A stretch of DNA of 64,000 nucleotides, taken from the NCBI RefSeq assembly GCF_900090325.1, contig NZ_FMHW01000002.1:930001-994000 (forward strand). Direction: 5' to 3'. This DNA is from Micromonospora pallida (GTDB lineage: Bacteria; Actinomycetota; Actinomycetes; Mycobacteriales; Micromonosporaceae). Below the pieces are notes generated by a model. The model was not told the DNA's origin. It saw only the letters and a program-made list of their open reading frames with translations, and ran no database searches. Positions 41,943 through 59,735 of the stretch are shown here, one piece after another. Positions within the stretch are counted from its first letter, which is position 1. Each line of letters begins with the position of its first letter. Position numbers and translations under genes: made by a program.

Positions 41943-42928
41943 TCACCGGCTGCTCCCTAGCGGAGAGGGATCCTGTCGCGGGGGCCGTGGCTCGGTGTTG
42001 GTGGTGGGGGTGTCGAAGGCCAGGGTGGCGGTGACGAGTCGGTGGTCAGAGGGGTAGGGGCGTTGTGCCGGCACATGAACCCGGTAGCTGCCCGGGTGGA
42101 CGTGGGGTCGCATGGCGGTGTTGGCGAGGAGCCAGTCGATGAGCAGGCTCCCGCCGGCGTCGACATCATTGTTGACGGTGGATAGCAGGGCTGTGTGGGG
42201 GCTGGCGGTCCAGGCGAGTTCGGCGATGGCGTGGAAGCCGCAGCCGTTGTCGCGGCGGTGGGTGTCGGGGTTCCAGCGGCCGATGAGGTGGTCGCCGGCG
42301 TCGGTGTCGGCGGTCCAGGTGCCGTCGGGGTGTTGGCGGGCTTTCTGGGCGCGGGCGCGGTAGCCGGCGGCTGCCCAGTCGCGTTGGGGCAGGTGGGGTG
42401 CGGACGCGGTGGAGTTGAGGTCGCCACCAGGATGAGGGGCATGTCGATGGTGCCGTAGCGGTCGAGTAGGGCGGCTTGTTGGCGGCGGCGGATGCCGCAG
42501 TGGGGGTCCCAGTGGGCGACGGCGGCGGCGAAGACGGTGCGGCTGTCGGGGTTGCCGGGGGTGCCGGTGTCGCGGATGGCGAAGAGGGCGATGTTGCGTT
42601 TGTCGGTGAAGGCGTGGGGGTCGTCGGGGGTGTGCCAGGAGCGCAGGGTCAGCAGGGTGGGGTCGTAGAGGATGGCTGGGGGGATGGGGCCGCGTGGGTC
42701 GTGGCCGAGCATGCCGACGTAGGGGCGGTCGAACCGGTCGGCGAGCAGTTCCGCGGCCTGGTGCAGGGGGTGCTGGCCGTGTTCGTGCCAGGTTTTGGCT
42801 TCGCAGAGCAGGATCAGCGCGGGCGGGGTGTCGACGTCGTGGAAGGCGTCGACGAGGGGGCGTAGGTCGCGGTGGCCGTTGCGGAGGCCGCCGGCTTCGA
42901 AGTTGAACAACGCGACAGGAATGATCAT
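41943..42928 (-). pseudogene. Endonuclease/exonuclease/phosphatase (EEP) protein, one-base frameshift
   Basis: From ATG 42928 (MIIPVALFNFEAGGLRNGHR) the frame encodes EEP motifs: FNFEAG, ALILLCEAKTW (metal-binding Glu), and AAAVAHWDPHCGIRRRQQAA. At about 42430 the strand that should read LVGDLNSTASAPHLPQRDW instead reads LVATSTPP; restoring one base in GGTGGCGAC repairs VGDLNS and the rest of the fold, including SDHRLVTATLAF, to a TGA at 41943. The total of 986 bp is one short of a multiple of three. The start overlaps the helicase stop (ATGA). Nuclease versus phosphatase activity cannot be told from sequence. Confidence 0.75.
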
Positions 42929-45420
42929 GATTGTCCCTCCTTGGCGGCGGGGCGGGGCCCGGGAGCTTGCTCGCGGTCGGGGTTGGGGGTGGCGTGGTCG
43001 CGTCGGGCGATGACCTGACGCACGCCGCCCCAGCCGAGAGGGATCTCCCAGTGCATGCCGATGGCGTCGAGGGCGGCGATCTGATCGCCGGTCAGAGTGC
43101 CGTCGCGTCGTGCGGTGCGCTGGCTGCTGAGCCACCGGGACAGGTCGACCTCGCCCTCCCGGTGGCCTTTGCGGGGATGCAGGTGCCCCTCACGCTGGTG
43201 GTAGGCGGCGGCTGATGCGAGGTTCCGTTGCCAGGCCGCCTCACGGATGGACCATTGGATGCCGAGTGCTTCCAGGGCGCGGACGCGGTCGGCGCTGAGA
43301 CGGCCCTTGCGGTGCTCGACGCGTCGGGTGGCCAGCCAGTTGTAGAGGTCGACGCCGTTGACGATGAGGTGGTAGGGCACGTTCAGGTGGCCGTGTTCGG
43401 CGTGGAACTGTTGGGCGGCGGCGTACCCGTCGTGGTGGGCGGGGCGGATGGTCCAGTCGATGCCGAGGGCGTCGAGCGCGGCGACCCGGTCGGCCGGCAG
43501 GGTGCCAGCGCGGTGGGCGGTGCGTTGCTGCCACAGCCAGCCGTAGAGGTCGACACCATCCACGAGGTGGCCGTGGGGGACGCGTAGGTGACCGTGCTCG
43601 GCGTGGAATCGTTGCGCGCAGGCGAGTCCCCGTGGCCAGATCCGTTCCCGGGGCGCCCAGTCGAAGCCGAGCGCGTTGAGGTAGGCGACCTGGTCGTGGT
43701 CCAGGCGGGCGGCCTTGTGGTCGGCGCGTTGCCGAGCGGCCCACCGGTCCAGGCGGACGCCGTGCCGGACGTGACCCGTCGGGACCCTGGTGTGGCCGTG
43801 CGCGGTGTGGAAGTCGCGTAGAGCGCCGTAGCCGACCATCCAGTCGGAGGTGGTCTCCTCCAGAACCCGCACCGTCAGCTGCCGCAGCAACTGCTCTGGG
43901 GCGTATCCGTCGGGCAGGCGGACCAGCAGCCGCGGCGGCAGCTCCGCGGCCCCGGTGGACGCTTTGGTGCGCTGGTGGTCGAGGTCGGCGGCCAAGCCGC
44001 TGTCGTGCGCCCGCAACGCCCGCAGCGTCTGCAGCAGGGTGGCCCACCGGGCCATGTCCCCGGCGAGGTCGGAGGCGGTGTCGGCGGGGTCGTCCGGCAG
44101 CAGCACCGGCAACAGGATGGTGGCGATGCCGGAGCCGGCCGGGTTGCGGCGCAACGCCCGCCCGACAGCCTGGATGACGTCGGCCTGGGACTCCTTCGGC
44201 GCGGTGAACACCACCGCGTCCACCGCAGGCACGTCCACACCCTCGCCCAGGCAGCGCGAGTTGGAGAGCACCGTCCACCCGTCCTCGGGCGGGTCTGCCA
44301 ACCGCCGCAGATGCAGGTGCCGCTGGCCGGTGCTCTGGGTGCCGTCGACGTGTCCCACCGTCAGCCGACCCTTCGGACGTTCCTCCTCGGGCAGGGATCC
44401 CACGGCGGCCGGCAACGTGCGGGCGAACTCCCGGCTGGCCCGCACCCGGGGCGTGAACACCAGCACCCGCCGCAGACCGAACTCCGCCGCTGCCCGGGCC
44501 AGGGCGGTCTGCACCACCACCGTCCGCAACGGCGCGGCACGCGCATGCACCACTGCAGCGGGATCCAGCTCCCGCAGCATCTCCAACGCCTGCGCGGAGG
44601 TGACGCCGATGGCGAGGATCCGGTAGTCGTCGAGCCAGCCGTCGTCGATGGCCCGCGAGAACGGGTACGTGTAACAGACAGGCCCGAACACCGACGCCTC
44701 ATCCATCGACAGCACATCGCCACTACCGTCGGCGGCGCGTCGCCTGGCCGGCAGCAGCCGGGGCGTGGCCGACATGTACAGCCGCCGCCGCGCCGGCAGA
44801 TGCTCGTCCCGGTGCACCAGCGCACCGTGCTTGCCCGCCCAGCCGGCCGTGTGGTGGGCCTCGTCCACGATCAGCAGGTCGGCGGTGATGCCGGCGGCAT
44901 CAAGACCCCTGCCCACCATCTCGGCCGAGCGGTGGGTGACCAGTACAAGGTCCAACCCAGGCCGACCCGGCTGTCGCACCCACTCGGCGATCTCACCCGG
45001 ATTCGTGGTTACCGGGCACGGCAGGTCGACCACCCGCACGGCGTCATCGGCGACGCTGCCGTCCCCGCACACCGCCAGCACCCGCGTCGGTGCACCAGCC
45101 CCGACCCACACGTCGAGGGTCTGCGCCAACAAGGTCAGCGACGGCACCGCCACCACCACCAGCCCGGACGGACACAACCGCACCCCAGCGTGCACCCCAA
45201 CGATCGACTTCCCGCTGCCGCAGGCCGCCCGCACCTGACCACGACCACCACCGACCAAGGCCGCGACCACCGCGTCAACGGCCTCCCGCTGATAGCCACG
45301 CAACTCCGGCAGCCTCCCGCGCGCGACTGCGTCTGTCGTGCCGTCGGCGAACCGGTCTGGGTCGTGGTGCGGGGCTCCCTCCTCGGAGAGCGTGGGGCGC
45401 AGGTGGTGATGAATATGCAC
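42925..45420 (-). CDS. SF2 DEAD/DEAH helicase with four helicase-associated repeats
   Basis: The 831-residue protein has a Walker A AACGSGKS near residue 67, a Walker B/motif II LLIVDEAHH, motif III YMSATPR, motif VI region DVIQAVGRALRRNP, and then four helicase-associated (HA) repeats of about 65 residues (for example FHAEHGHLRVPHGHLVDGVD, ...ALDALGIDW). HA-repeat helicases of this type are common in actinobacteria; their cellular role is not established. GTG 45420 (HIHHHLRPTLSEE) with GAGGA upstream is preferred over a longer, low-complexity N-terminus. It is coupled to the EEP gene and follows the GTPase gene. Confidence 0.85.
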   Translation of the reverse strand: MHIHHHLRPTLSEEGAPHHDPDRFADGTTDAVARGRLPELRGYQREAVDAVVAALVGGGRGQVRAACGSGKSIVGVHAGVRLCPSGLVVVAVPSLTLLAQTLDVWVGAGAPTRVLAVCGDGSVADDAVRVVDLPCPVTTNPGEIAEWVRQPGRPGLDLVLVTHRSAEMVGRGLDAAGITADLLIVDEAHHTAGWAGKHGALVHRDEHLPARRRLYMSATPRLLPARRRAADGSGDVLSMDEASVFGPVCYTYPFSRAIDDGWLDDYRILAIGVTSAQALEMLRELDPAAVVHARAAPLRTVVVQTALARAAAEFGLRRVLVFTPRVRASREFARTLPAAVGSLPEEERPKGRLTVGHVDGTQSTGQRHLHLRRLADPPEDGWTVLSNSRCLGEGVDVPAVDAVVFTAPKESQADVIQAVGRALRRNPAGSGIATILLPVLLPDDPADTASDLAGDMARWATLLQTLRALRAHDSGLAADLDHQRTKASTGAAELPPRLLVRLPDGYAPEQLLRQLTVRVLEETTSDWMVGYGALRDFHTAHGHTRVPTGHVRHGVRLDRWAARQRADHKAARLDHDQVAYLNALGFDWAPRERIWPRGLACAQRFHAEHGHLRVPHGHLVDGVDLYGWLWQQRTAHRAGTLPADRVAALDALGIDWTIRPAHHDGYAAAQQFHAEHGHLNVPYHLIVNGVDLYNWLATRRVEHRKGRLSADRVRALEALGIQWSIREAAWQRNLASAAAYHQREGHLHPRKGHREGEVDLSRWLSSQRTARRDGTLTGDQIAALDAIGMHWEIPLGWGGVRQVIARRDHATPNPDREQAPGPRPAAKEGQS

Positions 45421-45582
45421 GTGGTGGTCCTCGTGGATGGGTGGGTATGGGAGCCTCGGCCCGGGGCGGCTGCCCGGCGGACGCGGGTGGGCATGGCCGC
45501 TAACCCGGCGGGCTGAAGCTCGTACGCCGACCATGACGGCCACGACGTCCGACAACAGGCGCACGGACGCCGACCGAGTGGC

Positions 45583-46176
45583 TCAGGGAGAGACGGACCC
45601 GCCAGCACGGACCGCAGCGGGACGGCGGGTCAGCAGGTGCTGGACGAGGGCGATCAACAGCCGTCGGACACTGTCGCGGTTCCGCACGTCGAGCTCGACG
45701 ATCGGCACTTCTCCCGACAGGGCCAGGGCCTGGCGGATGTCGGACGCGGCGAAGCTGCGGGCACCGGGGAACGTGTTGACCGCGACGACGAACGGCAAGC
45801 GGACATGCTCGATGTAGTCCAAGTGCGCGAACGAGTCCTGCAGACGACGAACGTCGACGAGCACCACCGCCCCGACCGCGCCGCGCACGATCGCGTCCCA
45901 CATGAACCAGAACCGCCTCTGCCCCGGCGTGCCGAACACGAACAGGGTGACGCCGTTGACCTCCAGCCGACCGAAGTCCATCGCCACCGTGGTCGTGGTC
46001 TTGCCCGGCGCGTGGGAGACATCGTCGGAGGCGACAGCGACCTCGGTGCTCAACGGGGCGATATCCGAAACCGTCTGCACCAGCGTGGTCTTTCCGACCC
46101 CGAACGGCCCCGTCAACGCGATCTTCAACCCGCTCTGCCCCGACACAGCTGCTCCTGGTGCGACTGGTGTGCTCAC
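45583..46176 (-). CDS. Orphan conservon-type GTPase (CvnD-like)
   Basis: The 197-residue protein has the CvnD pattern: ALTGPFGVGKTTLVQTVSDI (P-loop), TTTTVAMDFGRLEVNG, LFVFGTPGQRRFWFMWDAIV (switch II) and VVAVNTFPGARSF (specificity loop). It is closely similar in layout to the CvnD of the complete conservon at 52.7 kb but stands without CvnA-C partners, so it may work with that conservon or with the helicase behind it. GTG 46176 has AGGAG seven bases upstream. A 33-bp element lies 295 bp upstream. Confidence 0.85.
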   Translation of the reverse strand: MSTPVAPGAAVSGQSGLKIALTGPFGVGKTTLVQTVSDIAPLSTEVAVASDDVSHAPGKTTTTVAMDFGRLEVNGVTLFVFGTPGQRRFWFMWDAIVRGAVGAVVLVDVRRLQDSFAHLDYIEHVRLPFVVAVNTFPGARSFAASDIRQALALSGEVPIVELDVRNRDSVRRLLIALVQHLLTRRPAAVRAGGSVSP

Positions 46177-46470
46177 CGGTTGGCTCCTGCGGCGACGAGA
46201 CGGCTGGCGTTTAACGACGTTGGCGTGCGCTGGTCGCCTATCGGCTCGGCGAACTGGTCACGCTCGGCGGTCCCGACCGGCAGGTCCGCGTCCCGACCGG
46301 ACGCCCGCTGCTGGCTGCCACGTTGGCCGTTGGTGGCGGCCTGTCCTGGCTGCAGAGTCATCGATACCTCCCGAGGGTTGCTCGCGAGCAGTGTTGGATT
46401 CGGGCACTGCGTGGTCACCGACGATTGCGGAGACTTGTGCCGCGACATTCACGTAACCGCTTGGGCGCGC

Positions 46471-46503
46471 CTGTCGACTACCTCCGACACAGACTTTCGA
46501 CAC
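46471..46503 (-). promoter_or_regulatory. 33-bp GTGTCG element, copy 1 (minus orientation)
   Basis: Read on the minus strand: GTGTCG-N7-GTGTCG-N8-CGACAG. It faces the orphan GTPase/helicase operon. The last half-site has one mismatch to CGACAC. It is one of two back-to-back copies in the 741-bp gap 46177-46917, which contains no gene. Confidence 0.6.
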
Positions 46504-46616
46504 CGATTCGTATCGACCTTGGCGGCAATGGCTCGCCCATACGCTGCCGGCAGCGTCGAGTTGATGCTCTGTAGCGCCCAGGACCTGCGGGAGCGGCGGG
46601 ATTCGTGGTGCTGCGC

Positions 46617-46649
46617 ATGTCGAAGGTGCGTGTCGGGGGTGTTCGACAC
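46617..46649 (+). promoter_or_regulatory. 33-bp GTGTCG element, copy 2 (plus orientation)
   Basis: Reads ATGTCG-N7-GTGTCG-N8-CGACAC on the plus strand, facing the CYTH gene 269 bp downstream. Its last 20 bases differ by a single base from the reverse complement of the copy at 50135-50154. Confidence 0.65.
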
Positions 46650-46917
46650 GGCGTCTCGCGCTGGCGATCGCCTGCCAGGGGCCGAGGTGCCGCATCACCG
46701 TCTGCGGGGCGGTCAGGGTTCGCTAGCGCACCGGACGGAAGAGCTGGTCGCTTTGCTGGCAGCGTCCGGACCGTTGATGCCGGCTTCACCCGCCCAAGGT
46801 GGTGCAGCATTGACCGCCGAAGGGTGGACCGGTCGCGCGGTAATAGTTGTGAACTGCCACCGAGGGTTGGGCGGGGCGAGACGCGGGTTCGCCGGTCGCG
46901 CCGTAGGCTGCCACGAC

Positions 46918-47511
46918 GTGACGAGCATCGACATCGCCCAGACGACGGGCACGACCGCGGTGGCCGCGTGCGAGGTGGAGGTCAAGTACCAGGTCGGCGA
47001 CCTCGCGGCGCTGGAAGCGGCTCTGGCCGCCCACGGTGTCGTCCTGTCAGCGCCGGTCGTTCAGGATGATCAGGCATACGCGCGGGTCGGCTGGGATTAC
47101 GGCCAGTCCAAGATCGGGGTTCCGTTCGCGCGGCTGCGGACCGAGCGGGGACGGCATCTGCTGACGGTCAAGACGCCGGTGGCCAACGAGCAGTCGTGCG
47201 TCGAGCACGAGACCGAGGTGGCCGATCGGGAGCAGATGCACGCCGCGATCCAGCAGCTGGGCTTCTACCCGACGGTGCGCATCCGTAAGACCCGCCGCAC
47301 CGCGACTCTCGGATTGATGTCGTTGTGCGTCGATCAGGTGGACGGCATCGGCGCGTTCCTGGAGATCGAGCGCATCGTCGATGGCGGCGAGTCGGGTGAG
47401 CGGGTCCAGGCCGAGCTTGACCGGTTCGCCGTCGCGCTGGGCGCGCCGCTACGGCGGACGAACGAGACCTATGACTCGCTGATCCGGGCGGCGAGGATGG
47501 CCGGGGTCTAG
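46918..47511 (+). CDS. CYTH-domain protein (class IV adenylate cyclase/CyaB-like)
   Basis: The 197-residue protein opens the CYTH fold with EVEVKYQVGDLAALEAALAA (ExExK), followed by LRTERGRHLLTVKTPV, VRIRKTRRTATLGLMSLCVD and FLEIERIVDGG, the set of charged strands that line the triphosphate tunnel. CyaB-like members cyclise ATP and others hydrolyse inorganic or thiamine triphosphate, so a triphosphate substrate is safe but the reaction is not. GTG 46918 is used; the ribosome-binding site is weak. It ends in a 4-bp overlap with the convergent EEP gene. Confidence 0.8.
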   Translation: MTSIDIAQTTGTTAVAACEVEVKYQVGDLAALEAALAAHGVVLSAPVVQDDQAYARVGWDYGQSKIGVPFARLRTERGRHLLTVKTPVANEQSCVEHETEVADREQMHAAIQQLGFYPTVRIRKTRRTATLGLMSLCVDQVDGIGAFLEIERIVDGGESGERVQAELDRFAVALGAPLRRTNETYDSLIRAARMAGV

Positions 47512-48311
47512 AACAGGGTCGCCGGCTCGGCTACCTGCGGCATGGGGCATATGTCGAGGGTGTCGACGGGCAGGTCGAGGTTCAGGGTGACTGCGGCGTG
47601 GTCGGTGAGGCGCTGCTCGCGGGGCTCCTGCAGGTAGCCGCCGCCCTGGAGCCGGCCGCGCAGGGCGGTGCCAACGTGCAGGTAGTCGAAGCGGTAGCCG
47701 TTGCCGGCCCGACCGAACCAGCTGTGCTGCGGGACGCCGGCGTAGAGGTGGTGGTGGGCGTCGGTGAGGCCGGCGTCGGCGAGGGCGTCGAACAGGGCGT
47801 ACTCGAACGGCAGCCACACCCCGGGGTAGGGCGGCTGGTGGTCGCGGGGGATGACGTTGTAGTCCCCGCCGAGCACCAGATGTGCCCGCTCGTCGGCCTT
47901 CAGGCGGCCGAGGGTGTCGACGAGGGAGGCGAGGAACGCCCGTTTCCGTTCGACCTTGGCCGGGGCGCGGTCGCTGGACGGCACGTAGACGCCGAGGACC
48001 GTGACGGGCGGGTCGGTGTGAACGGTGGCGGCGACGGCCCGGCCCGGGATAGTGAGTCCAGCGGTGATGTCCGGGCGGGCGGTGACCGGTACGCGGCTGA
48101 TCATCGCCGCGCCGCGGTCGCCGGGCAAGGGCGGGTGTAGTACGTGGCAGCCGGCGCGGCGGAAGTGGTCGAGCAGGTAGGCGCTGCCGTCGCCCCCGCT
48201 GGTTTCGGTGAGCAGGAGAATCTGTTCCGGGCGGCCGGCGAGCCACCGCAGCAGCGGTTCGGCGCGCCGCCGCGAGGCGGCCTGGATGTTCACGGTCAGG
48301 AACGACAACAC
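47508..48311 (-). CDS. Endonuclease/exonuclease/phosphatase (EEP) family protein
   Basis: The 267-residue protein has the full EEP set: MLSFLTVNIQAASRRR (Asn), ILLLTETSGG (Glu), GVYVPSSDRAPAKVERKRAF (second metal region), LVLGGDYNVIPRD (GDxN) and LTDHAAVTLNL (DH). It could be a nuclease or a phosphoesterase. It is last in an operon with the thymidylate-kinase-like and radical SAM genes, 12 bp after the former. GTG 48311 is the start. Confidence 0.8.
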   Translation of the reverse strand: MLSFLTVNIQAASRRRAEPLLRWLAGRPEQILLLTETSGGDGSAYLLDHFRRAGCHVLHPPLPGDRGAAMISRVPVTARPDITAGLTIPGRAVAATVHTDPPVTVLGVYVPSSDRAPAKVERKRAFLASLVDTLGRLKADERAHLVLGGDYNVIPRDHQPPYPGVWLPFEYALFDALADAGLTDAHHHLYAGVPQHSWFGRAGNGYRFDYLHVGTALRGRLQGGGYLQEPREQRLTDHAAVTLNLDLPVDTLDICPMPQVAEPATLF

Positions 48312-48323
48312 GAGGCGAGACTT

Positions 48324-48932
48324 TCAGGCCGCAGGGCGTCGGGCGAGCATGGGGGTCAGCGTGTCGAGAATGGCGCAGACGACCTGGTCCGGGTCCCGGT
48401 TCCGGCAGTCGATCTTCACCTGGTGCCACGACTGCCGCTTGAGGAAGTCGAAAGCCTGGTCGTAGAGCTGCAGCTCGCGTGCGGGGGTGCCGGTCGCCTC
48501 GAGCCGGGTCAGGCGCCGGCGTACGGCGAGCCGGGTGGCGATGACCCGCGGGTCGTCGACCAGGTAGACGGAGATGGCAGGCTGCAGGACGTACCGGTTG
48601 TAGCTCCAGATCTCGCGGAGGTCGACCGCGTCAACGCGCTGCAGGACCAGCGAGGACTGCACGTAACGATCGCTGATCACGATAGTGCCGGAGTCGAGCG
48701 CGGGGATGATCTCGTCCTCGACGTGCATGGTGCGGTCGGCGGCGATCGCGAGGGCGAGGGCCCGTCCGTGGATGACGGCCTCGGCCTCGCGCAGCAGTTC
48801 CCCGAGGCGGGTCCTGGTGGGTTCGGTTGTCAGGTGGACCGGCTGGCCGGTGCGGTGGCGCAGCCGCTCGGCCAGCAGCCCCGCGACCGTTGTCTTCCCG
48901 ACGCCGTTGGGTCCCTCGATCACGATGAGCAT
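48324..48932 (-). CDS. Thymidylate-kinase-like nucleotide kinase
   Basis: The 202-residue protein begins MLIVIEGPNGVGKTTVAGLL (P-loop), has TTEPTRTRLGELLREAEAV, AADRTMHVEDEIIPALDSG and the SDRYVQSSLVLQ signature, matching dTMP kinases. The substrate may differ from dTMP because it is clustered with a radical SAM enzyme, as nucleotide kinases are for prokaryotic viperins. It lies 6 bp after the radical SAM stop, so the two are co-translated. Confidence 0.8.
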   Translation of the reverse strand: MLIVIEGPNGVGKTTVAGLLAERLRHRTGQPVHLTTEPTRTRLGELLREAEAVIHGRALALAIAADRTMHVEDEIIPALDSGTIVISDRYVQSSLVLQRVDAVDLREIWSYNRYVLQPAISVYLVDDPRVIATRLAVRRRLTRLEATGTPARELQLYDQAFDFLKRQSWHQVKIDCRNRDPDQVVCAILDTLTPMLARRPAA

Positions 48933-48938
48933 GACCGG

Positions 48939-50042
48939 TCAGGCCCTGACAGGTTGGATCGGGATCAGCGGACGCCGGACGGTCTCGGGCGGGCACTGGT
49001 CGGCGTCGGGGCCACCGATGGGCTGGCCGGCGGCGACCACCGCCGCTGGGCAGCCCTTGCCGCAGGAGTCGCTCAACGCGCACGCGCCGCAGGTCGGGTT
49101 GGCCCCGACCTGGTAGCGGTCGTGGAAGCGGTAGCGGTCAAGGGCGTCGGCGATCTCGCCGTGGAGGATGTTGCCGACCAGGAACTCGCGGTCGGCGTGC
49201 CGTGACTGTGGTGTCCGGGCGGCGAAGACCAGGTAGGGGCAGACGGCGGTGTCGCCGTTGGCGAACACGTAGATCAGGGTGCCGGCGTCGCAGCCGGACA
49301 ACGGCCGGTTGTCGTTCGGGAAGCGGATCGGCACCAGCTCGACACGGCCGGCCAGGGGCGCCGTGGCGGCGGCGATCGCCCGCATCGTCTGCTCCGGCGC
49401 GGCGAGCCGGCCGTGGGACTTCACGCCCCGGCCGAAGCTCGACAGCGGGTTCATCAGCACATACTCCGCGCCCAAGTCCGCGGCGAACGCGCACAGCTCG
49501 GCGAACTCCTCGGGGCGGGTGAGCACGTTGGGCGTCGACAGGATCCCGTGCAGCAGACCGGCGTCGGCGAACCGTCGTGTCGTCTCCAGGGTGATGGCGA
49601 ACGAGTTGCGGTCACCCCGGAACCGGCCGTGCGACGAGGGGCGGAACCCGTCGAAGCTGACGTTGACTCGCACGTTGCCCAGCGCGGCGAGGGCGGCGAT
49701 CTGCGCGTCGCTGGTCTGGGTGGCGTTCGTGCAGATCTTGACCGATAGGTCCATCCGCGCCGTCGCCGCGCAGATCTCCACCAGGTGCGGGTGCACGAAC
49801 GGCTCCCCGCCGGTCAACGTCAACCGTGTCACCCGGGCCCGCCGCAGCCGGGGCAGCACCGTCTCGATCATCTCCTCCAGCGGTATATCCATGCCGACCT
49901 GGGTGGATGACACGAAGCAGTGGGCGCAGTGCAGGTTGCACCGCTCCGTGATCTGTACCAGCGCCTTACGCTCGTCGCCCTCTACCGAGGTGCGGAAATA
50001 GCAGGAGCTGGCGTGTGTCTCGACGACCAGACGCTTGCTCAT
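48939..50042 (-). CDS. Radical SAM protein with SPASM-like C-terminus
   Basis: The 367-residue protein has the radical SAM cluster motif CNLHCAHC at residues 35-42 (CxxxCxxC), TLTGGEPFVHPHLVEI, and a C-terminal SPASM-type region with CDAGTLIYVFANGDTAVCPY, VGNILHGEI and CGACALSDSCGKGCPA for one or two auxiliary iron-sulphur clusters. SPASM enzymes typically modify peptides or small metabolites. Its kinase neighbour resembles viperin loci, but viperins lack a SPASM domain, so a viperin role is less likely. GGGAGG stands four bases before ATG 50042. First gene of a three-gene operon. Confidence 0.85.
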   Translation of the reverse strand: MSKRLVVETHASSCYFRTSVEGDERKALVQITERCNLHCAHCFVSSTQVGMDIPLEEMIETVLPRLRRARVTRLTLTGGEPFVHPHLVEICAATARMDLSVKICTNATQTSDAQIAALAALGNVRVNVSFDGFRPSSHGRFRGDRNSFAITLETTRRFADAGLLHGILSTPNVLTRPEEFAELCAFAADLGAEYVLMNPLSSFGRGVKSHGRLAAPEQTMRAIAAATAPLAGRVELVPIRFPNDNRPLSGCDAGTLIYVFANGDTAVCPYLVFAARTPQSRHADREFLVGNILHGEIADALDRYRFHDRYQVGANPTCGACALSDSCGKGCPAAVVAAGQPIGGPDADQCPPETVRRPLIPIQPVRA

Positions 50043-50134
50043 GAACCCTCCCAGCGCCCACCCGCTCCCAGCGGCGTTGACATCGCCTGGCCTGGGTCAC
50101 GGGATTCCTCGTCCAGCTAACGGGGCGTCTGCTC

Positions 50135-50167
50135 GTGTCGAACACCCTCGACACCGAAATCCGACAC
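50135..50167 (-). promoter_or_regulatory. 33-bp GTGTCG element, copy 3 (minus orientation)
   Basis: On the minus strand: GTGTCG-N7-GTGTCG-N8-CGACAC, all three half-sites exact. It lies 93 bp upstream of the radical SAM start and faces that operon. The 454-bp gap 50043-50496 otherwise contains no gene. Confidence 0.7.
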
Positions 50168-50305
50168 CGCGGCAGACCCGGCCGTGCCCGCGTTCACCCG
50201 GTCCCGATCTGCGTTGGCCAGCAACATCGACCGATCCCGAAGGATCGGAGTGGCCAGCCGAGAGGCGCTTTGGTCCCTCCATACGGGCCAAGTGGTGCGG
50301 GTTCC

Positions 50306-50338
50306 GTGTCGGTTCTTCGTGTCGACGGTGTTCGACAC
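50306..50338 (+). promoter_or_regulatory. 33-bp GTGTCG element, copy 4 (plus orientation)
   Basis: GTGTCG-N7-GTGTCG-N8-CGACAC with all half-sites exact, facing the conservon start 159 bp downstream. It is back-to-back with copy 3, exactly as copies 1 and 2 are arranged at 46.5 kb. Confidence 0.7.
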
Positions 50339-50496
50339 TCCACGCGCCCGCCATAACTGATTGCCAATGGCATCGATCGCTGCGACGCCGGGACCAACCG
50401 GACCCGGCAGGTGGCCGACACCTGTGAATGAGGGCGGGGTCGCAGCCGGTGGCGGGAGCTGCTGCTCGGCGCCACCTAACTACTTGGGGAGGCAGG

Positions 50497-51855
50497 GTGC
50501 GAGTCCGACTCGACGCGTCGGCTGAAGAACCGCCTGCGACCAGCCTGCGCGCCCGCTTGCTGGGGATGTGTGTGGCGCCGGCCGCTGTGGTGGCGATGAT
50601 CGGCCTCGGTGCGGCGACGTGGGTGGTGGCGCTGTCACCGGGGCACGTTCCGGCGATGGCCGGGCTGGTGCTGGTGTGCGCGGCTGTGGCCTGCGCCGCG
50701 GTCATCGCGGGTGCTGCGTCGTACGGTCGTGGACTCGCCCGGTCCGTTGCCCGGACTGCGGTGGCTGCCCGGCCTGAGCCCGTTCAGCCGGTGGTGGGGC
50801 AGCAGGAGGTGTATGTCGGCCTCGCGCGCCGGCTGCAGGGACTGGTGCATCGGGAGATCCAGTTGCTGGATGTCCTGGAGGCGCAGGTCGAGGACCCCGA
50901 CCTGCTCAAGGGCCTGTTCCAGGTGGATCACCTCGCGACCCGCATGCGCCGCTACGCGGAGAACCTCGCAGTGGTGGGAGGGGCCGTGCCACGGCGGCAG
51001 TGGAGCAGGCCACTGCCGCTGGTCGAGGTCCTGCGCTCCGCCATCGCCGAGGTCGAGCAGTACCCGCGGGTTCGGGTGGTGCCACCGGTCGAGGGAACAG
51101 TGCGCGGCCACGCCGGGGCCGACGTGGTGCACCTGCTGGCCGAGCTGATCGAGAACGCCACCGCGTTCGCGCCTCCTCACACGGAGGTGACGGTGCGGGC
51201 CCGGCGGGTCGCGGCCGGCGTGGCGGTCGAGGTGGACGACCGCGGCCTGGGCATGCCGCATCCCGAGCAGGACCGGCTGAACGCTCTGCTGGCGGATCCG
51301 GGCCGGGTGGATGTCGGGGACCTGCTGCGCGATGGCCGTATCGGGGCTTGGGTGATCTCGGCGCTGGCCCGCCGGCACGACATCACGGTCAAACTGCAGA
51401 GCAACGTCTACGGCGGTGTGCAGGCGGTGGTGATCCTGCCGACGACGTTGCTCGGAGACCAGACGGCCCAGGAACCGTCGGCCGTCGACGCGGCCCGAAC
51501 GCCCCCACGCGGCGCGGCGACCGTGCCATCACCGCTGATCGGTGCTGCGCCTGCGCCGGCCGACCCTCGTCACCGCCCACCTGCGCCCCTGACGGAGCTG
51601 ACGCGGGCCGCGCCACATGGGGCGTTGCCAGCGCCCCACAACAGCACCGACACGGGCCAGGCGGGCGGGGACGGCGTGCGTCCCGTGCTGCCGCGCCGGA
51701 CACGGCAGGCACACATGGCGGCCCCGTTACGGCAGGCCCGCCCAGGGTCGGGGAACCAGCCGACCGGCGGCCACGACCCCACTCTGATGGCCAATTTCCT
51801 ACGCGGCGCCAACTCCGGAAACGCCGACCCGCCCACAGGACCTCCTGCCCGTTGA
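50497..51855 (+). CDS. cvnA: Conservon sensor component (CvnA, histidine-kinase-like)
   Basis: The 452-residue protein has two membrane helices in its first 80 residues (APAAVVAMIGLGAATWVVAL; AGLVLVCAAVACAAVIAGAA), a conserved VDHLATRMRRYAENLAVVGG segment corresponding to the phosphoacceptor helix, and a GHKL ATPase domain with LLAELIENATAFAPPHTEV (N-box) and VDDRGLGM (G1). The last 110 residues are Pro/Ala-rich and likely disordered. CvnA is the membrane sensor of a conservon complex. GTG 50497 with GGGGAGGCAG upstream is the start. Confidence 0.9.
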   Translation: MRVRLDASAEEPPATSLRARLLGMCVAPAAVVAMIGLGAATWVVALSPGHVPAMAGLVLVCAAVACAAVIAGAASYGRGLARSVARTAVAARPEPVQPVVGQQEVYVGLARRLQGLVHREIQLLDVLEAQVEDPDLLKGLFQVDHLATRMRRYAENLAVVGGAVPRRQWSRPLPLVEVLRSAIAEVEQYPRVRVVPPVEGTVRGHAGADVVHLLAELIENATAFAPPHTEVTVRARRVAAGVAVEVDDRGLGMPHPEQDRLNALLADPGRVDVGDLLRDGRIGAWVISALARRHDITVKLQSNVYGGVQAVVILPTTLLGDQTAQEPSAVDAARTPPRGAATVPSPLIGAAPAPADPRHRPPAPLTELTRAAPHGALPAPHNSTDTGQAGGDGVRPVLPRRTRQAHMAAPLRQARPGSGNQPTGGHDPTLMANFLRGANSGNADPPTGPPAR

Positions 51856-51889
51856 CCACTGACCGCCGATGTTCAGAAGGAGTTGTCTT

Positions 51890-52312
51890 GTGATGACCAC
51901 GACGCCCGGCCAGGAACTGACCTGGCTGCTGTCCGCCCTGGTGGAACGGGTACCGCACACCCGGAGCGCACTGCTGCTGTCCTCCGACGGGCTGCCGCGG
52001 GCCGCCCACGGACTGACCGATGACAGCGCGGACCACCTGGCAGCGATCTCCTCCGGGCTGTTCTCCCTGACCCGCAGCGCTGGCGAGATGTTCGACGAAG
52101 GCTCCGGCGTGCGGCAGGTAGTGGCCGAGCTCGACGACACGCTGCTGTTCGTCACCGCCGCGGGTGAAGGTGCGGTACTGGCGGTACTGGCGGGCCGCCA
52201 GGCTGACGTCAGCGTCCTCGGCTACGAGATGTCGCAGATGGTCAAGAGCGTCCGGCCGTACCTGGCGACACCCACCCGCGGCACTGCCGTCCCGTCTCCC
52301 GCCGTGCGATGA
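51890..52312 (+). CDS. cvnB: Roadblock/LC7 protein (CvnB)
   Basis: The 140-residue protein matches roadblock/LC7 (MglB-like) proteins of conservons: LTWLLSALVERVPHTRSALL, LSSDGLPRAAHGLTDDSADH, LAAISSGLFSLTRSAGEMFD and VTAAGEGAVLAVLAGRQADV. CvnB probably acts as a GTPase-interacting regulator of CvnD. GTG 51890 has AAGGAG seven bases upstream; ATG 51893 is the alternative. Its stop overlaps the next start (ATGA). Confidence 0.9.
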   Translation: MMTTTPGQELTWLLSALVERVPHTRSALLLSSDGLPRAAHGLTDDSADHLAAISSGLFSLTRSAGEMFDEGSGVRQVVAELDDTLLFVTAAGEGAVLAVLAGRQADVSVLGYEMSQMVKSVRPYLATPTRGTAVPSPAVR

Positions 52313-52686
52313 GATTCGGCGGCGCGCATCAGGAGACGTGGGTCGACGAGGCGGCCGGGCGGCTGGTACGCCCCTACACGGTCAGCGCCGGGCGGACCCG
52401 ACCCACCACAGCAATGGACCTGCTGTCGTGGGTCGTCGCCACCGGCGTACGGCCGCGCGGGCGGTTGGAGCCGGACCACGACGTGGCCTTGGGCCTGTGC
52501 GGCGAGGCGACCACGGTCGCCGAGGTGGCCGCCCGGATGAGACTCCCAGCCGCGGTCACGAAGGTGGTGCTGTCGGACCTGGTAGCGGTCGGCGCGGTAC
52601 GCACCCGTCCACCCAGCCCGGTCGCCGACCCGACCGACCGATCGATCCTGGAGAGGCTCCTTGTCGGCCTACAGCAACGACTCTGA
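52309..52686 (+). CDS. cvnC: DUF742 protein (CvnC)
   Basis: The 125-residue DUF742 protein starts with acidic residues (MRFGGAHQETWVDEAAGRLV), contains RPYTVSAGRTRPTTAMDLLS and a winged-helix-like C-terminal half (HDVALGLCGEATTVAEVAAR). DUF742 proteins are the fixed third component of conservons; their biochemical role is unclear. It overlaps CvnB by 4 bp and CvnD by 26 bp. Confidence 0.9.
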   Translation: MRFGGAHQETWVDEAAGRLVRPYTVSAGRTRPTTAMDLLSWVVATGVRPRGRLEPDHDVALGLCGEATTVAEVAARMRLPAAVTKVVLSDLVAVGAVRTRPPSPVADPTDRSILERLLVGLQQRL

Positions 52687-53278
52687 CCGCACGCCGAACG
52701 CGCTCAAGGTGCTGGTCGCTGGCGGGTTCGGAGTCGGGAAGACCACCTTCATCACGGCGACGAGCGAGATCCCGCCGCTGCGCACCGAGGAACTCCTCAC
52801 CGCGGCCAGCGTCGGCACCGACGACCTCGCCGGAGTGGAAGCCAAGACAACCACCACCGTGGCGCTGGACTTCGGCCGCATCACTATCGACTGCGAGAAC
52901 GTCCTGTATCTGTTTGGCACACCGGGGCAGGACCGGTTCTGGTTCCTGTGGGACGAACTGTGCCAGGGCGCGCTCGGCGCGGTGGTGCTGGTCGACACCC
53001 GCCGCCTGCCGGACTGCTTCGCCGCCGTGGACTTTTTCGAGTCCCGCCGCCTCCGGTTCCTGGTCGCCGTCAACGAGTTCGACGGTGCCTACCGATACGA
53101 CCCTCAGGAGGTACGCGCAGCCCTGGGACTGCGGCCCGAGGTGCCGGTCGTGACGTGCGACGCCCGCCACCAACGATCCGCCACCGCCGTCCTGGCGACG
53201 CTCGTGCAGCACCTGCTCACCCAACCCCCTCCCACACCCTTGAGCTTCGATCCGATAGAGGCAGGCAGCCCAGCATGA
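52661..53278 (+). CDS. cvnD: Conservon GTPase (CvnD)
   Basis: The 205-residue protein shows VAGGFGVGKTTFITATSEIP (P-loop), KTTTTVALDFGRITIDCENV, LYLFGTPGQDRFWFLWDELC and FLVAVNEFDGAYR, as in MglA/Cvn-type Ras-like GTPases. It starts at TTG 52661 inside the previous gene, the only start giving the usual N-terminus, with GAGAGG upstream. It is the likely output switch of the complex and a paralogue of the orphan GTPase at 45.6 kb. Confidence 0.9.
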   Translation: MSAYSNDSDRTPNALKVLVAGGFGVGKTTFITATSEIPPLRTEELLTAASVGTDDLAGVEAKTTTTVALDFGRITIDCENVLYLFGTPGQDRFWFLWDELCQGALGAVVLVDTRRLPDCFAAVDFFESRRLRFLVAVNEFDGAYRYDPQEVRAALGLRPEVPVVTCDARHQRSATAVLATLVQHLLTQPPPTPLSFDPIEAGSPA

Positions 53279-53835
53279 TCAACGACAGCTACGAACCCCG
53301 ACTCCTCACCCCGCCCGACCTGCAGGCGCCGCAGCGGCTACACCGGCTGCAGGCCCTCCGACTCGGACGGCCGGAGCCGGAGTTCGACGACTTTGCCCAC
53401 AAGCTGGCGCAGACCACCGACATGCCCTGGGCGATGGTGAACTTCCTCGACGAGCACGGACAGTTCTTCGCCGGCCTTTACACCACCCCGACCACCCAGC
53501 CAGGGGTGTCCGCACCCGTTACCCCAATCGAACCCGGCCGCCGCATGTCACGAGACCAGGGCTTCTGCCCACACGTCGTCGCCCGACGCCGCGCGCTGGT
53601 CCTCGAAGACGTCTGCGCCTGGCCACGGTTCGCCGGCAACCCCGTCGTCGACCAACTCGGCATCCGCACCTACATGGGCGCCCCACTGATCGACCACACC
53701 GGCACCGCCCTCGGAACGATCTGCGTCGTCGGCCCCGAACCCCGCGCCTGGGGCCAGAAAGGGCTCACCACCATCAAGACCCTGGCGGCCGAACTGTCAG
53801 CCCTTATCAACCAGCGGGAACACCGCCCCGGCTAA
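53275..53835 (+). CDS. GAF-domain protein of the conservon operon
   Basis: The 186-residue protein is a single GAF domain: an N-terminal helix (LHRLQALRLGRPEPEFDDFA), MPWAMVNFLDEHGQFFAGLY, FCPHVVARRRALVLEDVCAW and YMGAPLIDHTGTALGTICVV. GAF proteins in conservons may sense a small ligand or interact with CvnA. The start overlaps the CvnD stop (ATGA), so the five genes form one unit. No cysteine for heme or bilin attachment is obvious apart from FCPHVV. Confidence 0.85.
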   Translation: MINDSYEPRLLTPPDLQAPQRLHRLQALRLGRPEPEFDDFAHKLAQTTDMPWAMVNFLDEHGQFFAGLYTTPTTQPGVSAPVTPIEPGRRMSRDQGFCPHVVARRRALVLEDVCAWPRFAGNPVVDQLGIRTYMGAPLIDHTGTALGTICVVGPEPRAWGQKGLTTIKTLAAELSALINQREHRPG

Positions 53836-54030
53836 CAACCCGGGGCGTGCCCGACAGCCTCCCGCCGCGCCACCGACCCCAGGCACCTTGGACCTTCCCG
53901 CGTTGCCTCGCCGCCCAGGTCGGCAGCTCACTTTCCAGGAACTGCTGGTGACAGCACCTCCACCACGGCCCGACCTTGCGGCGCAACTACCACCAGACGG
54001 CACCGTGGGCGACTCACGAGGAGACCCGGC

Positions 54031-55245
54031 ATGACCGACGGCTACCACCTCACCCCCCGCCACACGCACCTGCGGAACACCGTCCGCGTGTTCGCCGAGA
54101 CCGAGGTCCGCCCCCACATCCCGGAGCTGGAGGCGTCTCGGAGCGTGGCGTACGACCTGTCCCGGCAGATTGCCTGCCAAGGGTGGCTCGGCGTCACGAT
54201 CGACCCCACCCACGGCGGACTCGGACTCGGCCACCTCGCCAAAACGATCATCATCGAGGAACTGTCCCGCGTCTCGGCCGCCATGGGCGCCATGCTCCAA
54301 GCATCCCAACTCGGCGCCGCGAAGATCATCCACTTCGGCAACGACGAGCAGAAACAGACCTGGCTACCCGCCATCGCCGCCGGCACCTGCCTGCCCACCA
54401 TCGCCGTCACCGAACCCGGATCCGGCAGCCACGTCCTCGGCATCACCACCACCGCCGTCCCCGACGGCGACCACTACCTCATCAACGGCACGAAAACCTT
54501 CGTCGGCAACAGCCACATCGCCGACCTCCACGGCGTCGTCGCACGCACCAGCCCCGGCACCCGCGGACTATCCGCCTTCCTCGTCGAAGCCGACCGACCC
54601 GGCGTACACCTCACTCCACACCAGCCGAGCATGGGCCTGCACGGCTTCAGCTTTGGCGAGGTGGCCTTCGACAACTGCCGCATCCCCGCAGCCAACCGGC
54701 TCGGCGCCGAAGGCGACGGCCTCGACGTGGCCTACTCCTCCAGCGTCCTGTACGGCAGACCCAACCTCGCCGCCGTCGCCCTCGGCATCCACCAAGCGAC
54801 CCTCGACACCACCATCGCCTACACGACCAACCAGCACCGCTACGGCAAACCACTGGCCGACCTGCCGACGATCAAACAACGGCTCGGCACCATGCAATCC
54901 CGGCTCATGACCGCCCGCCTGGCCGCCTACCACGCCGCACACCTACTCGACCACGGCCAACCCTGCGACGCCGAACTTATCAACGCCAAGCTCATCAATG
55001 CCGAATTCACGATCGACTCCGCCCGTACCGCCATGGAAATGCACGCCGCACACGGCCTCCACCCGGCGCAATCACCCATCGAACGCTACTTCCGCGACGC
55101 CCTACACATCTTCGCCCCCGCCGGCACCACCGACATCCAACTCCTACGACTGGCCGAACACGCCCTTGGCGCCACCCAACAGCCCTGGTCAACCCAGTTC
55201 AATGCCTCCATGGCCGGTCGACTCGAAACGAGCGTGGCGAGGTGA
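54031..55245 (+). CDS. Acyl-CoA dehydrogenase-like flavoprotein, catalytic Glu apparently absent
   Basis: The 404-residue protein has the acyl-CoA dehydrogenase fold: N-terminal helices (LRNTVRVFAETEVRPHIPEL), GWLGVTIDPTHGGLGLG, AVTEPGSGSHVLGITTTAVP, HYLINGTKTFVGNSHIADL and a C-terminal AMEMHAAHGLHPAQSPIERY. Where family members have YEGT with the catalytic Glu, this one reads FAPAGTTDIQLLRLAEHALG, and no alternative Glu is seen on the helix used by isovaleryl-type enzymes. It may oxidise poorly, or catalyse an unusual reaction. GAGGAGA precedes ATG 54031; it probably follows the conservon transcript. Confidence 0.8.
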   Translation: MTDGYHLTPRHTHLRNTVRVFAETEVRPHIPELEASRSVAYDLSRQIACQGWLGVTIDPTHGGLGLGHLAKTIIIEELSRVSAAMGAMLQASQLGAAKIIHFGNDEQKQTWLPAIAAGTCLPTIAVTEPGSGSHVLGITTTAVPDGDHYLINGTKTFVGNSHIADLHGVVARTSPGTRGLSAFLVEADRPGVHLTPHQPSMGLHGFSFGEVAFDNCRIPAANRLGAEGDGLDVAYSSSVLYGRPNLAAVALGIHQATLDTTIAYTTNQHRYGKPLADLPTIKQRLGTMQSRLMTARLAAYHAAHLLDHGQPCDAELINAKLINAEFTIDSARTAMEMHAAHGLHPAQSPIERYFRDALHIFAPAGTTDIQLLRLAEHALGATQQPWSTQFNASMAGRLETSVAR

Positions 55246-56073: not shown

Positions 56074-57144
56074 ATGGCGCATGCGTGGGTGATTCGGTCT
56101 GGTAGGCATGGTGAGCGTGACCAGTGGGCTTTGCTCAACGGGTTCTCGGGCGGCGGATGGCGCGAGGTCCCTGACCTGAGCGCCTGCGCGAGCCGTGAGG
56201 ACGTTGCGAAGGTCGTTGAAGCGACGTGGCCGGGCGCGTCTGTGGGCAAGCGCCACAATTTTACCGGGCAACTGTGTGCTCTGCGGTTCCGCATCCATCC
56301 CAAGGATCTACTGGTTATGCCGCTGAAAACGACGAAGCAGATCGCCTTCGGGCGAGTGACCGGTGGCTACCAGTATCGTGCCGGCGAGGCGGAGGCCGAT
56401 CGGCGGCATGTCGTCACCGTCGACTGGCAACGTATCGACTTGCCACGCGCTGCGGTCAAGCAGGACCTGCTCTTTACCCTCGGCAGTGCCATGTCGATCT
56501 TCGCGCCGAGCAAGAACAACGCGGTTGCTCGGCTGGAGCACCTGCTTACTTACGGCACCGACCCCGGTAATGCCGCACTGAGCGGCACCACGCCAAAAAC
56601 CGCCGCGACTAGCCAGGCGAGCGATACCGCCGCACAGACAGATGTTGACGAGCCGGAGCTGGCAGCTGACATCGAACAGGTCGCCCTCGACCAGATCACC
56701 GCCCGCATCGCAGAGGAGTTCACCGGCCACGACCTGGCGACGCTCGTCACCGCGATCCTTACCGCCGAAGGCTTCCACTGCACACTGGCACCCCCCGGTC
56801 CGGACGGCGGCATCGACATCACTGCCGGACGCGGCCCGCTTGGTCTCGACAGTCCCCGCCTGCTCGCCCAGGTCAAGTCAGGCTCGCAGATCGGGGCGCC
56901 CACCGTCACTCAACTCCACGGCGTCATGACGACCCACGGCGCCGAGCAGGGCCTGCTCGTCGCATGGGGCGGACTGACGAAGCCCGCCCGAGACGCCCTG
57001 AAAAACCAGCACCTGCGGGTACGGGTGTGGGAGGCAGGCGACGTGGTCGAGGCAGTCCTGCGTACGTATGACCGGCTGCCGGAAGAGATCCGCGCCCAGG
57101 TACCACTGCGCAGGGTATGGATGCTCTCCGACGCTGGTCTCTGA
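56074..57144 (+). CDS. Mrr-like restriction endonuclease with N-terminal effector domain
   Basis: The 356-residue protein has an N-terminal domain of the type found in front of Mrr-like nucleases (HAWVIRSGRHGERDQWALLN, then QIAFGRVTGGYQYRAG) and a C-terminal Mrr catalytic domain: LVTAILTAEGFHCTLAPPGP, DGGIDITAGRGPLG and LLAQVKSGSQIGAP, giving the D...QxK active site. Mrr enzymes cut modified or foreign DNA. ATG 56074 has GGAGG nine bases upstream. It starts the defence-type run that continues to the right edge. Confidence 0.8.
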   Translation: MAHAWVIRSGRHGERDQWALLNGFSGGGWREVPDLSACASREDVAKVVEATWPGASVGKRHNFTGQLCALRFRIHPKDLLVMPLKTTKQIAFGRVTGGYQYRAGEAEADRRHVVTVDWQRIDLPRAAVKQDLLFTLGSAMSIFAPSKNNAVARLEHLLTYGTDPGNAALSGTTPKTAATSQASDTAAQTDVDEPELAADIEQVALDQITARIAEEFTGHDLATLVTAILTAEGFHCTLAPPGPDGGIDITAGRGPLGLDSPRLLAQVKSGSQIGAPTVTQLHGVMTTHGAEQGLLVAWGGLTKPARDALKNQHLRVRVWEAGDVVEAVLRTYDRLPEEIRAQVPLRRVWMLSDAGL

Positions 57145-59024: not shown

Positions 59025-59735
59025 TCATCTGACTTGTTCATAGAGGATGCCGTGTTTGCTCCGCATGAGGGTCTCGATCGATGTGGCGAGGTTGGTGTCG
59101 TGTGCCAGCAGCCCCAGTTCGATGTTGTTGGTCTCGGCGCTGTAGGAGAAGTTTGCGCTGGTCAGCAATATGACCGCGCGGTCGACGACGATGAACTTGG
59201 CATGGCTGACTAGCGGATGGCGGCCTCCGGGTGGGGTGAGCGTCCGGAATACGGTCGCCTTAGGCAGGTGTGCCGCGACGGCGGCCGGGGAGCCGGCGTG
59301 GGCGTCGAGGTACACCGTGACGCTCAGGCCGGGGCGTGCTGCGGCGTTCTTCAGGGCGGGCCACATCCCTGAGTGCGGGGTGAAGTTGAAGCTTGAGCAG
59401 ACGATCGACATGCGTGCGTCGTCGATGATGCGTTGGGCTTCGCTGGTGAGGCGGCCGGTGGTGGCCTCGACGCCGGGCATGGTCCAGACAGGGGTGATGG
59501 CGGTCCGGACCGCTCGTGCACCGGCGATGGCTCGGAGCACGGCGACCGAGTTGTCCCGGTGCTCCACGCCGACTTTGGCTGCGGTGAGCAGGCGTTTGAC
59601 CTCGCTGCGGCGGGCGGCGTGTACCTCTTTCAGTGCTTGGCCGGTGGTGCCGCCGGCTTGTAGCACGGTGGCGAGTCGTTGTGCTTCGTAGGCGGTCAGG
59701 AAGGCGCCGAGCTCGGTGTGGGGGTCAGTAGACAT
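59025..59735 (-). CDS. drmC: DISARM phospholipase-D-like protein DrmC
   Basis: The 236-residue protein has one phospholipase-D motif, SHAKFIVVDRAVILLTSANF (HxK-x4-D), followed by SAETNNIELGLLAHD, after a helical N-terminus (FLTAYEAQRLATVLQAGGTT). DrmC is one of the three core DISARM genes, the least essential in tested systems. Its ATG at 59735 overlaps the end of drmB by 11 bp, so they are coupled. Confidence 0.85.
   Translation of the reverse strand: MSTDPHTELGAFLTAYEAQRLATVLQAGGTTGQALKEVHAARRSEVKRLLTAAKVGVEHRDNSVAVLRAIAGARAVRTAITPVWTMPGVEATTGRLTSEAQRIIDDARMSIVCSSFNFTPHSGMWPALKNAAARPGLSVTVYLDAHAGSPAAVAAHLPKATVFRTLTPPGGRHPLVSHAKFIVVDRAVILLTSANFSYSAETNNIELGLLAHDTNLATSIETLMRSKHGILYEQVR

Follow-up and report, generated by a model that had tools for sequence, protein, structure and literature searches.

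A conserved 33-bp element ahead of a conservon, a radical SAM operon and an FxLD lanthipeptide operon in Micromonospora pallida, and its candidate XRE-type regulator

Two divergent intergenic regions in a 64,000-nucleotide stretch of the Micromonospora pallida genome (hereafter the window, at its full length) raise the question of which regulator, if any, acts on the genes at either side of them. A preliminary description of this DNA had reported four copies of a 33-bp element, GTGTCG-N7-GTGTCG-N8-CGACAC, in two back-to-back pairs, and had suggested that one regulator or alternative sigma factor controls four units, namely an orphan GTPase/helicase/EEP unit, a CYTH gene, a radical SAM/kinase/EEP operon and a complete conservon. 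By computation, the element occurs far above chance, is conserved, is followed by a promoter-like box, stands before a recurrent set of genes and co-occurs with one class of helix-turn-helix (HTH) proteins. It is almost certainly a conserved control element, and we think that it is probably the operator of an XRE-type HTH regulator, in this genome the protein P0001, which would coordinate a lanthipeptide operon, the conservon, the radical SAM operon and the CYTH gene.

The element, its conservation and its promoter-like box

A pattern scan of the window recovers all four copies with the positions, strands and paired arrangement first described. Copy 1 (46471..46503, minus strand; one mismatch, a G as last base; 43.4 bits) lies ahead of a 62-codon open reading frame (ORF) and the orphan GTPase gene, and copy 2 (46617..46649, plus strand; one mismatch, an A as first base; 44.9 bits) ahead of the CYTH gene. 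Copy 3 (50135..50167, minus strand; exact, 52.8 bits) precedes the radical SAM gene by about 93 nt, and copy 4 (50306..50338, plus strand; exact, 49.5 bits) lies ahead of the gene for CvnA. Additional bases are indeed common to three copies, which all contain GGTGTTCGACAC, and each copy is directed at the nearest gene start, which its palindromic end GTGTCGA-N6-TCGACAC faces. One extra match (50122, plus strand) overlaps copy 3 and is no separate site; at up to three mismatches, shuffled windows gave a mean of 0.33 matches and a maximum of 3, against 5 in the real window.

In the complete genome of 7.76 Mb, five copies occur at up to one mismatch, all inside about 71 kb. The fifth (C2:909259-909291) lies upstream of the window, 20.7 kb from its start and 67 kb from the closest of the four copies. 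Looser matching adds 4 places at two mismatches, including the overlapping reading at 50122, and 14 at three, which by eye look like chance matches. With the pattern reversed as a control, 8 places match at up to three mismatches. The pattern is hence not frequent in this genome, and it recurs in related gene clusters, so that neither of the two findings named beforehand as speaking against the proposal, random abundance and lack of conservation, was made.

Among 354 genomes of the family, 32 contain the pattern with at most one mismatch. Eight of these (G024, G103, G110, G141, G177, G183, G235 and G304) and one place in G303 appeared chance-like by eye and were left out of the region set, which comprised 20 plus 16 regions from the remaining genomes (one of them a flank from the own genome) and the own flanks, 704 kb in total. 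A weight matrix built from 39 seed sites, with near-duplicates excluded, detected 68 sites at 12 bits or more in these regions, 67 of them at 28 bits or more, and none in the reversed sequence. A stricter degenerate pattern with up to three mismatches matched 60 sites in 26 of the 354 genomes, and its reversed form matched in none, although the relatedness of the genomes means that site and genome counts are not independent. In a six-genome alignment of the divergent region the elements stand out as conserved blocks, and copies 3 and 4 each carry such a footprint. The second copy in G331, at 13.7 bits, lacks the first half-site but retains the palindromic core. One flanking gene is unlike that of the window in G168 and also in G331. 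G168 carries an additional element (G168:C1:2822027-2822059), far from its other clusters. A variant half-site pattern matched in 2 of 394 genomes of the class, one match being judged chance-like, and this form is therefore rare.

The element consists of three GTGTCG half-sites, two direct and one inverted, at fixed spacing. Other loci, 930 kb in all, contain precisely the arrangement TGTC-N9-TGTC-N10-GACA 15 times (two canonical elements, several orthologous copies), and the alternative spacings tried occur 0-2 times each, except for one with 8 occurrences, 7 of which overlap, on the opposite strand, a site of the TGTC-N9-TGTC-N10-GACA type. Downstream follows a GTTRRCTGR box, whose best position is 12-14 nt away in 57 of 65 distinct sites; its mean score is 7.2 versus 0.0 in a neighboring control stretch, the box model having been fitted on the same sites that were scored. 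In the window, -10-like boxes lie 13 nt downstream of copy 1 (GTTACGTGAA, 46448..46457, minus strand), copy 3 (GTTAGCTGGA, 50112..50121, minus strand) and copy 4 (CATAACTGAT, 50352..50361, plus strand). Element and box together thus appear to mark a promoter-proximal operator.

This arrangement could also be read as the promoter of an alternative sigma factor, with TTCGACA as -35 and GTTRRCT as -10. The box is unlike TANNNT and its spacing is almost fixed, as such a promoter would have it. However, the three-part element of 33 bp exceeds a promoter hexamer in length, and visual inspection of the neighboring clusters, which included no search aimed at sigma genes, showed none that recurs; we regard a sigma-factor promoter as rather improbable. 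Still far less credible is a repeat without regulatory role, such as a mobile-element end, a recombination site or a chance pattern. The inverted arrangement of paired copies would fit a repeat, as would an integrase-like gene (c22, by eye) near several clusters, but single copies are common, and of 13 neighboring site pairs less than 400 bp apart 12 face outward, one is on the same strand and none faces inward. The location at gene starts, the promoter-like box that follows and the conserved blocks between genomes likewise argue for a control element. An Rfam scan of positions 44000-54000 returned no match, which also speaks against a repeat, and a known structured RNA was rejected as the identity of the element on the same result.

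Genes downstream of the element

The genes that the element points at were tallied for 69 sites (the 67 at 28 bits or more, and L169 and L172), taking for each the nearest gene that a home-made gene caller placed no more than 700 nt downstream. As the regions were chosen by element presence, the tally is not independent of the element: a radical SAM gene is first in 13 cases (10 of a 367/368-aa type, 3 of a 333-aa type), an FxLD methyltransferase gene in 12, CvnA in 7, an XRE-type regulator in 6, CYTH in 5 and an RmlD-like reductase in 3, with other genes in 16 and none in 7. In the 10 loci with the 367/368-aa type, which share this selection, the element precedes the radical SAM gene by 65-96 nt.

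An independent set was obtained with the radical SAM protein as query and contains 33 named loci. Five of these encode proteins that are at least 83% identical, and the element lies ahead in all four that could be assessed, the fifth locus being cut at its start. At 71% identity or less, an element-like site of at least 14 bits was found in 3 of 28 loci. In these 28 loci (L104-L131) the triple of radical SAM, dTMP-kinase-like and EEP genes was called in 24, with CYTH also present in 21 of these, and the cassette is therefore more widespread than the operator. The earlier statement that the genes were not otherwise known to belong together fails for this part of the set.

The fifth copy would extend the regulon beyond the window. 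By our gene caller, 207 nt separate it from the gene for an FxLD-system methyltransferase (508.9 bits, cut-off 320), which is followed by a 68-aa precursor-like ORF and a LanB-type dehydratase gene (Lant_dehydr_N and Lant_dehydr_C). With a methyltransferase above cut-off and such a dehydratase alongside, the locus qualifies as an FxLD lanthipeptide cluster. The genome has two FxLD methyltransferase genes above cut-off, and this locus contains both; the second lies downstream, running from L032:19418 into L033.

In the window itself, copy 4 precedes a conservon in which HATPase_c, Robl_LC7, DUF742 and ATP_bind_1 domains follow in that order (50428-53278, plus strand): histidine-kinase-like CvnA (50428..51855, start at 50428 or 50497), roadblock/LC7 protein CvnB (51869..52312, start at 51869 or 51893), CvnC with DUF742 (52309..52686) and the GTPase CvnD (52661..53278). 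A GAF protein (53275..53835, plus strand; GAF E-value 1e-15) follows CvnD and represents the CvnF-type accessory of a subset of conservons, as defined in the accessible part of PMC13343842. Copy 3 precedes, on the minus strand, the genes for the radical SAM protein (48939..50042), a dTMP-kinase-like protein (48324..48932; 103.6 bits, cut-off 83.25) and an EEP or exonuclease III-like protein (47508..48311). The top NCBIfam match of the radical SAM protein is the mycofactocin maturase, below cut-off, and its C-terminal cysteines look SPASM-like by eye. Prokaryotic viperin was rejected as its identity, with 51.1 bits against an NCBIfam cut-off of 180 and a best pVip match that covers only residues 30-138. 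Copy 2 precedes the CYTH-domain protein (46918..47511, plus strand), for which the class IV adenylate cyclase model barely passes its cut-off (60.8 vs 57.95 bits).

Control by one regulator finds partial support in a conserved promoter-proximal operator before the conservon, the radical SAM operon and CYTH, here and in relatives, but the set first proposed was incomplete, as the FxLD lanthipeptide operon and the likely regulator both lie outside the window, and the case is weaker for the orphan GTPase unit. Around copy 1, promoter, ribosome-binding site (RBS) and first codons match the RmlD-like reductase gene of L075, L087 and L094, and in the window, G176 and G271 an ORF of about 62 codons takes the place of the reductase and runs into the GTPase. 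In the window this ORF (46173..46361, minus strand) has an RBS and first 20 or so codons like the start of the reductase gene. Because operator, RBS and first codons resemble those of the reductase gene in three other genomes, this looks like a case of promoter capture, the reductase being the gene driven elsewhere. The orphan unit consists, on the minus strand, of the CvnD-like GTPase gene (45583..46176; ATP_bind_1, 90.8 bits), a gene for a helicase with four helicase-associated domains (42925..45564) and one for a 323-aa protein (41957..42928), which the preliminary description called EEP and which matched no Pfam or NCBIfam model.

Behind the conservon, an acyl-CoA dehydrogenase gene (54031..55245, plus strand) is found, as in several related genomes. 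Further along, the window contains a Mrr-like restriction endonuclease gene (56317-57144) that strongly matches the PADLOC candidate family PDC-S02, and DISARM-like defence genes (59025-63926), with DrmA and DrmB matches and a PLD-domain gene.

P0001 and its class of HTH proteins

P0001 (C2:906674-908077, 468 aa) is encoded outside the window, two genes ahead of the fifth copy. Its XRE-type HTH scores above the Pfam cut-offs (HTH_31 36.6 bits, cut-off 27; HTH_3 23.6 bits, cut-off 23), and the protein is the sole close homologue in its own genome, the next best scoring 36.6 bits. The predicted structure (mean pLDDT 87.6, pTM 0.68) shows an HTH followed by a helical-repeat superhelix, and profile and fold matches are TPR proteins; the TPR superhelix is assigned from the predicted model and these matches.

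We defined the HTH class of P0001 by a score of at least 90 bits (the next score is 78.6) among up to 14 first-look candidates from each genome, and absence of the class from a genome is therefore not proven. It comprises 55 genes in 33 genomes and is found in 23 of the 26 element-bearing genomes versus 10 of the 328 others (Fisher P about 3e-25, which is no true probability as the genomes are related). Of the 26 genomes, 11 have a class member no more than 350 bp from a site, 21 have one within 10 kb, and in 23 a member shares a contig with a site. Loci of other genera (L104, L122, L127) have variant sites with unchanged spacing, 35-207 bp from diverged family members whose HTH is 37-44% identical. 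Links to conservons are seen in G146 and G277, where the HTH-class gene is divergent from a conservon and 26 bp from the operator, and in G299, where genes of the CvnA, CvnB and CvnC types (31-35% identical to those of the window) are followed by an HTH-class gene at the place of CvnD. No CvnD match was found at the G299 locus, and its operator in front overlaps the called CvnA start. Genes for 370-aa HTH-class proteins also occur divergent from a conservon at L064:5564-6676 and L087:4249-5361, the L064 protein having an HTH and then an AAA domain.

These observations make P0001 the likely binder. The operator might instead be bound by another protein, either an unlinked regulator or, as proposed for Cvn8, the CvnC of the conservon (DUF742, HTH superfamily) together with CvnD; a DNA-binding complex of CvnC8 with GTP-bound CvnD8 has been proposed, according to the accessible part of PMC8510531. 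G287 would suit this alternative, as it has a CvnC orthologue and the element while the HTH class was not found among its 14 scored candidates. However, close CvnC orthologues (at least 87% identical) exist in only 9 of the 26 element-bearing genomes, compared with 23 for the HTH class, and CvnC was rejected as common binder for this reason; we consider a different binder unlikely overall.

Several points weigh against P0001 and its class. Three element-bearing genomes (G287, G335 and G337) yielded no class member among 14 candidates each, and ten genomes have the class without the element (G141, G155, G179, G205, G210, G211, G215, G231, G292 and G353). At HTH-class loci of genomes without the pattern at up to one mismatch a diverged element was predicted, but only 2 of the 12 regions covered (10 genomes; G179, an eleventh listed genome, was left out) have one, and none of 8 control regions does. 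The co-occurrence may also be inflated by joint movement of regulator and targets as one island. For P0001 itself the weight-matrix scan gave no operator, and its gene lies about 69 kb from the window sites; the nearest class member is 76 kb away in G203 and 15 kb in G331. The C-termini of the class differ, being TPR-like or, in G146, an AAA domain, so that a common signal is not shown. As to the promoter, 5 of the 57 well-placed boxes score below 4, and copy 2 has no clear downstream box (score 0.5).

On balance we still favor P0001, which would bind at the three half-sites just upstream of the -10-like box. Occupancy of this position would overlap with the -35 region, placing the gene that the element points at under the control of the regulator, and since the spacing to the box is fixed, activation would be slightly preferred over repression. 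In this way P0001 would coordinate CYTH, the FxLD lanthipeptide operon, the radical SAM/dTMP-kinase-like/EEP operon and the conservon with its GAF accessory, while promoter capture would have brought the orphan GTPase unit into the regulon. The TPR domain of P0001 may sense a peptide or the CvnD GTPase. A bolder and rather speculative extension, on which we would not rely at present, is that one HTH class with exchangeable TPR-like or AAA domains and one tripartite operator form the missing DNA-binding output of certain conservons. In such a scheme, the CvnD GTPase or the processed FxLD lanthipeptide would act on the TPR domain, and conservon, lanthipeptide and the radical SAM/kinase/EEP/CYTH cassette would be set jointly.

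Comparison with known regulatory systems

Restriction-modification controller proteins act on paired sites near a promoter, and we know of no link between them and conservons. Two of them, C.AhdI and C.BclI, appear as profile matches in the HTH of P0001, but their entries are 74-77 residues long and hence have no TPR part. RRNPP regulators such as Rap, Rgg and PlcR share with the modelled P0001 an N-terminal XRE HTH and a C-terminal TPR-like superhelix. Foldseek ranks RapF, RapJ and PlcR below LGN, these three with weak matches (E-values 0.0016-0.006, TM-scores by query length 0.25-0.41). Unlike RRNPP regulators, the P0001 class has no known ligand peptide, and its member in G146 has an AAA domain instead.

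The present results bear on how conservons reach the DNA: one conserved operator links a conservon and a lanthipeptide operon with a candidate class of regulators, and a conserved, uncharacterised radical SAM/kinase/EEP/CYTH enzyme cassette would belong to the same regulon. In open-licence literature we noticed nothing on this operator or on the regulation of FxLD clusters. Operator and HTH class suggest themselves as candidates for the missing DNA-binding partner of conservon G-protein systems, and conservon output can now be tested with a defined protein, a defined DNA site and a list of genes.

The closest parallel is Cvn8 of Streptomyces coelicolor, which, according to the accessible parts of PMC13343842 and PMC8510531, exerts repression on the lanthipeptide cluster next to it by way of an unknown DNA-binding effector, with both lan and cvn8 genes over-expressed in cvn8 mutants. 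The working model in PMC13343842, as far as its accessible part goes, places an unknown effector, possibly a DNA-binding protein, between CvnD8 and the lanthipeptide cluster. The system described here shares with Cvn8, as seen in these parts, the CvnA-D genes with a GAF accessory and a regulation tied to a lanthipeptide cluster. It differs in that Cvn8 adjoins its lan cluster, whereas the present conservon is linked to a distant FxLD cluster by a shared operator; the FxLD type, the operator and the regulator class are known in this comparison from the side of the present family only.

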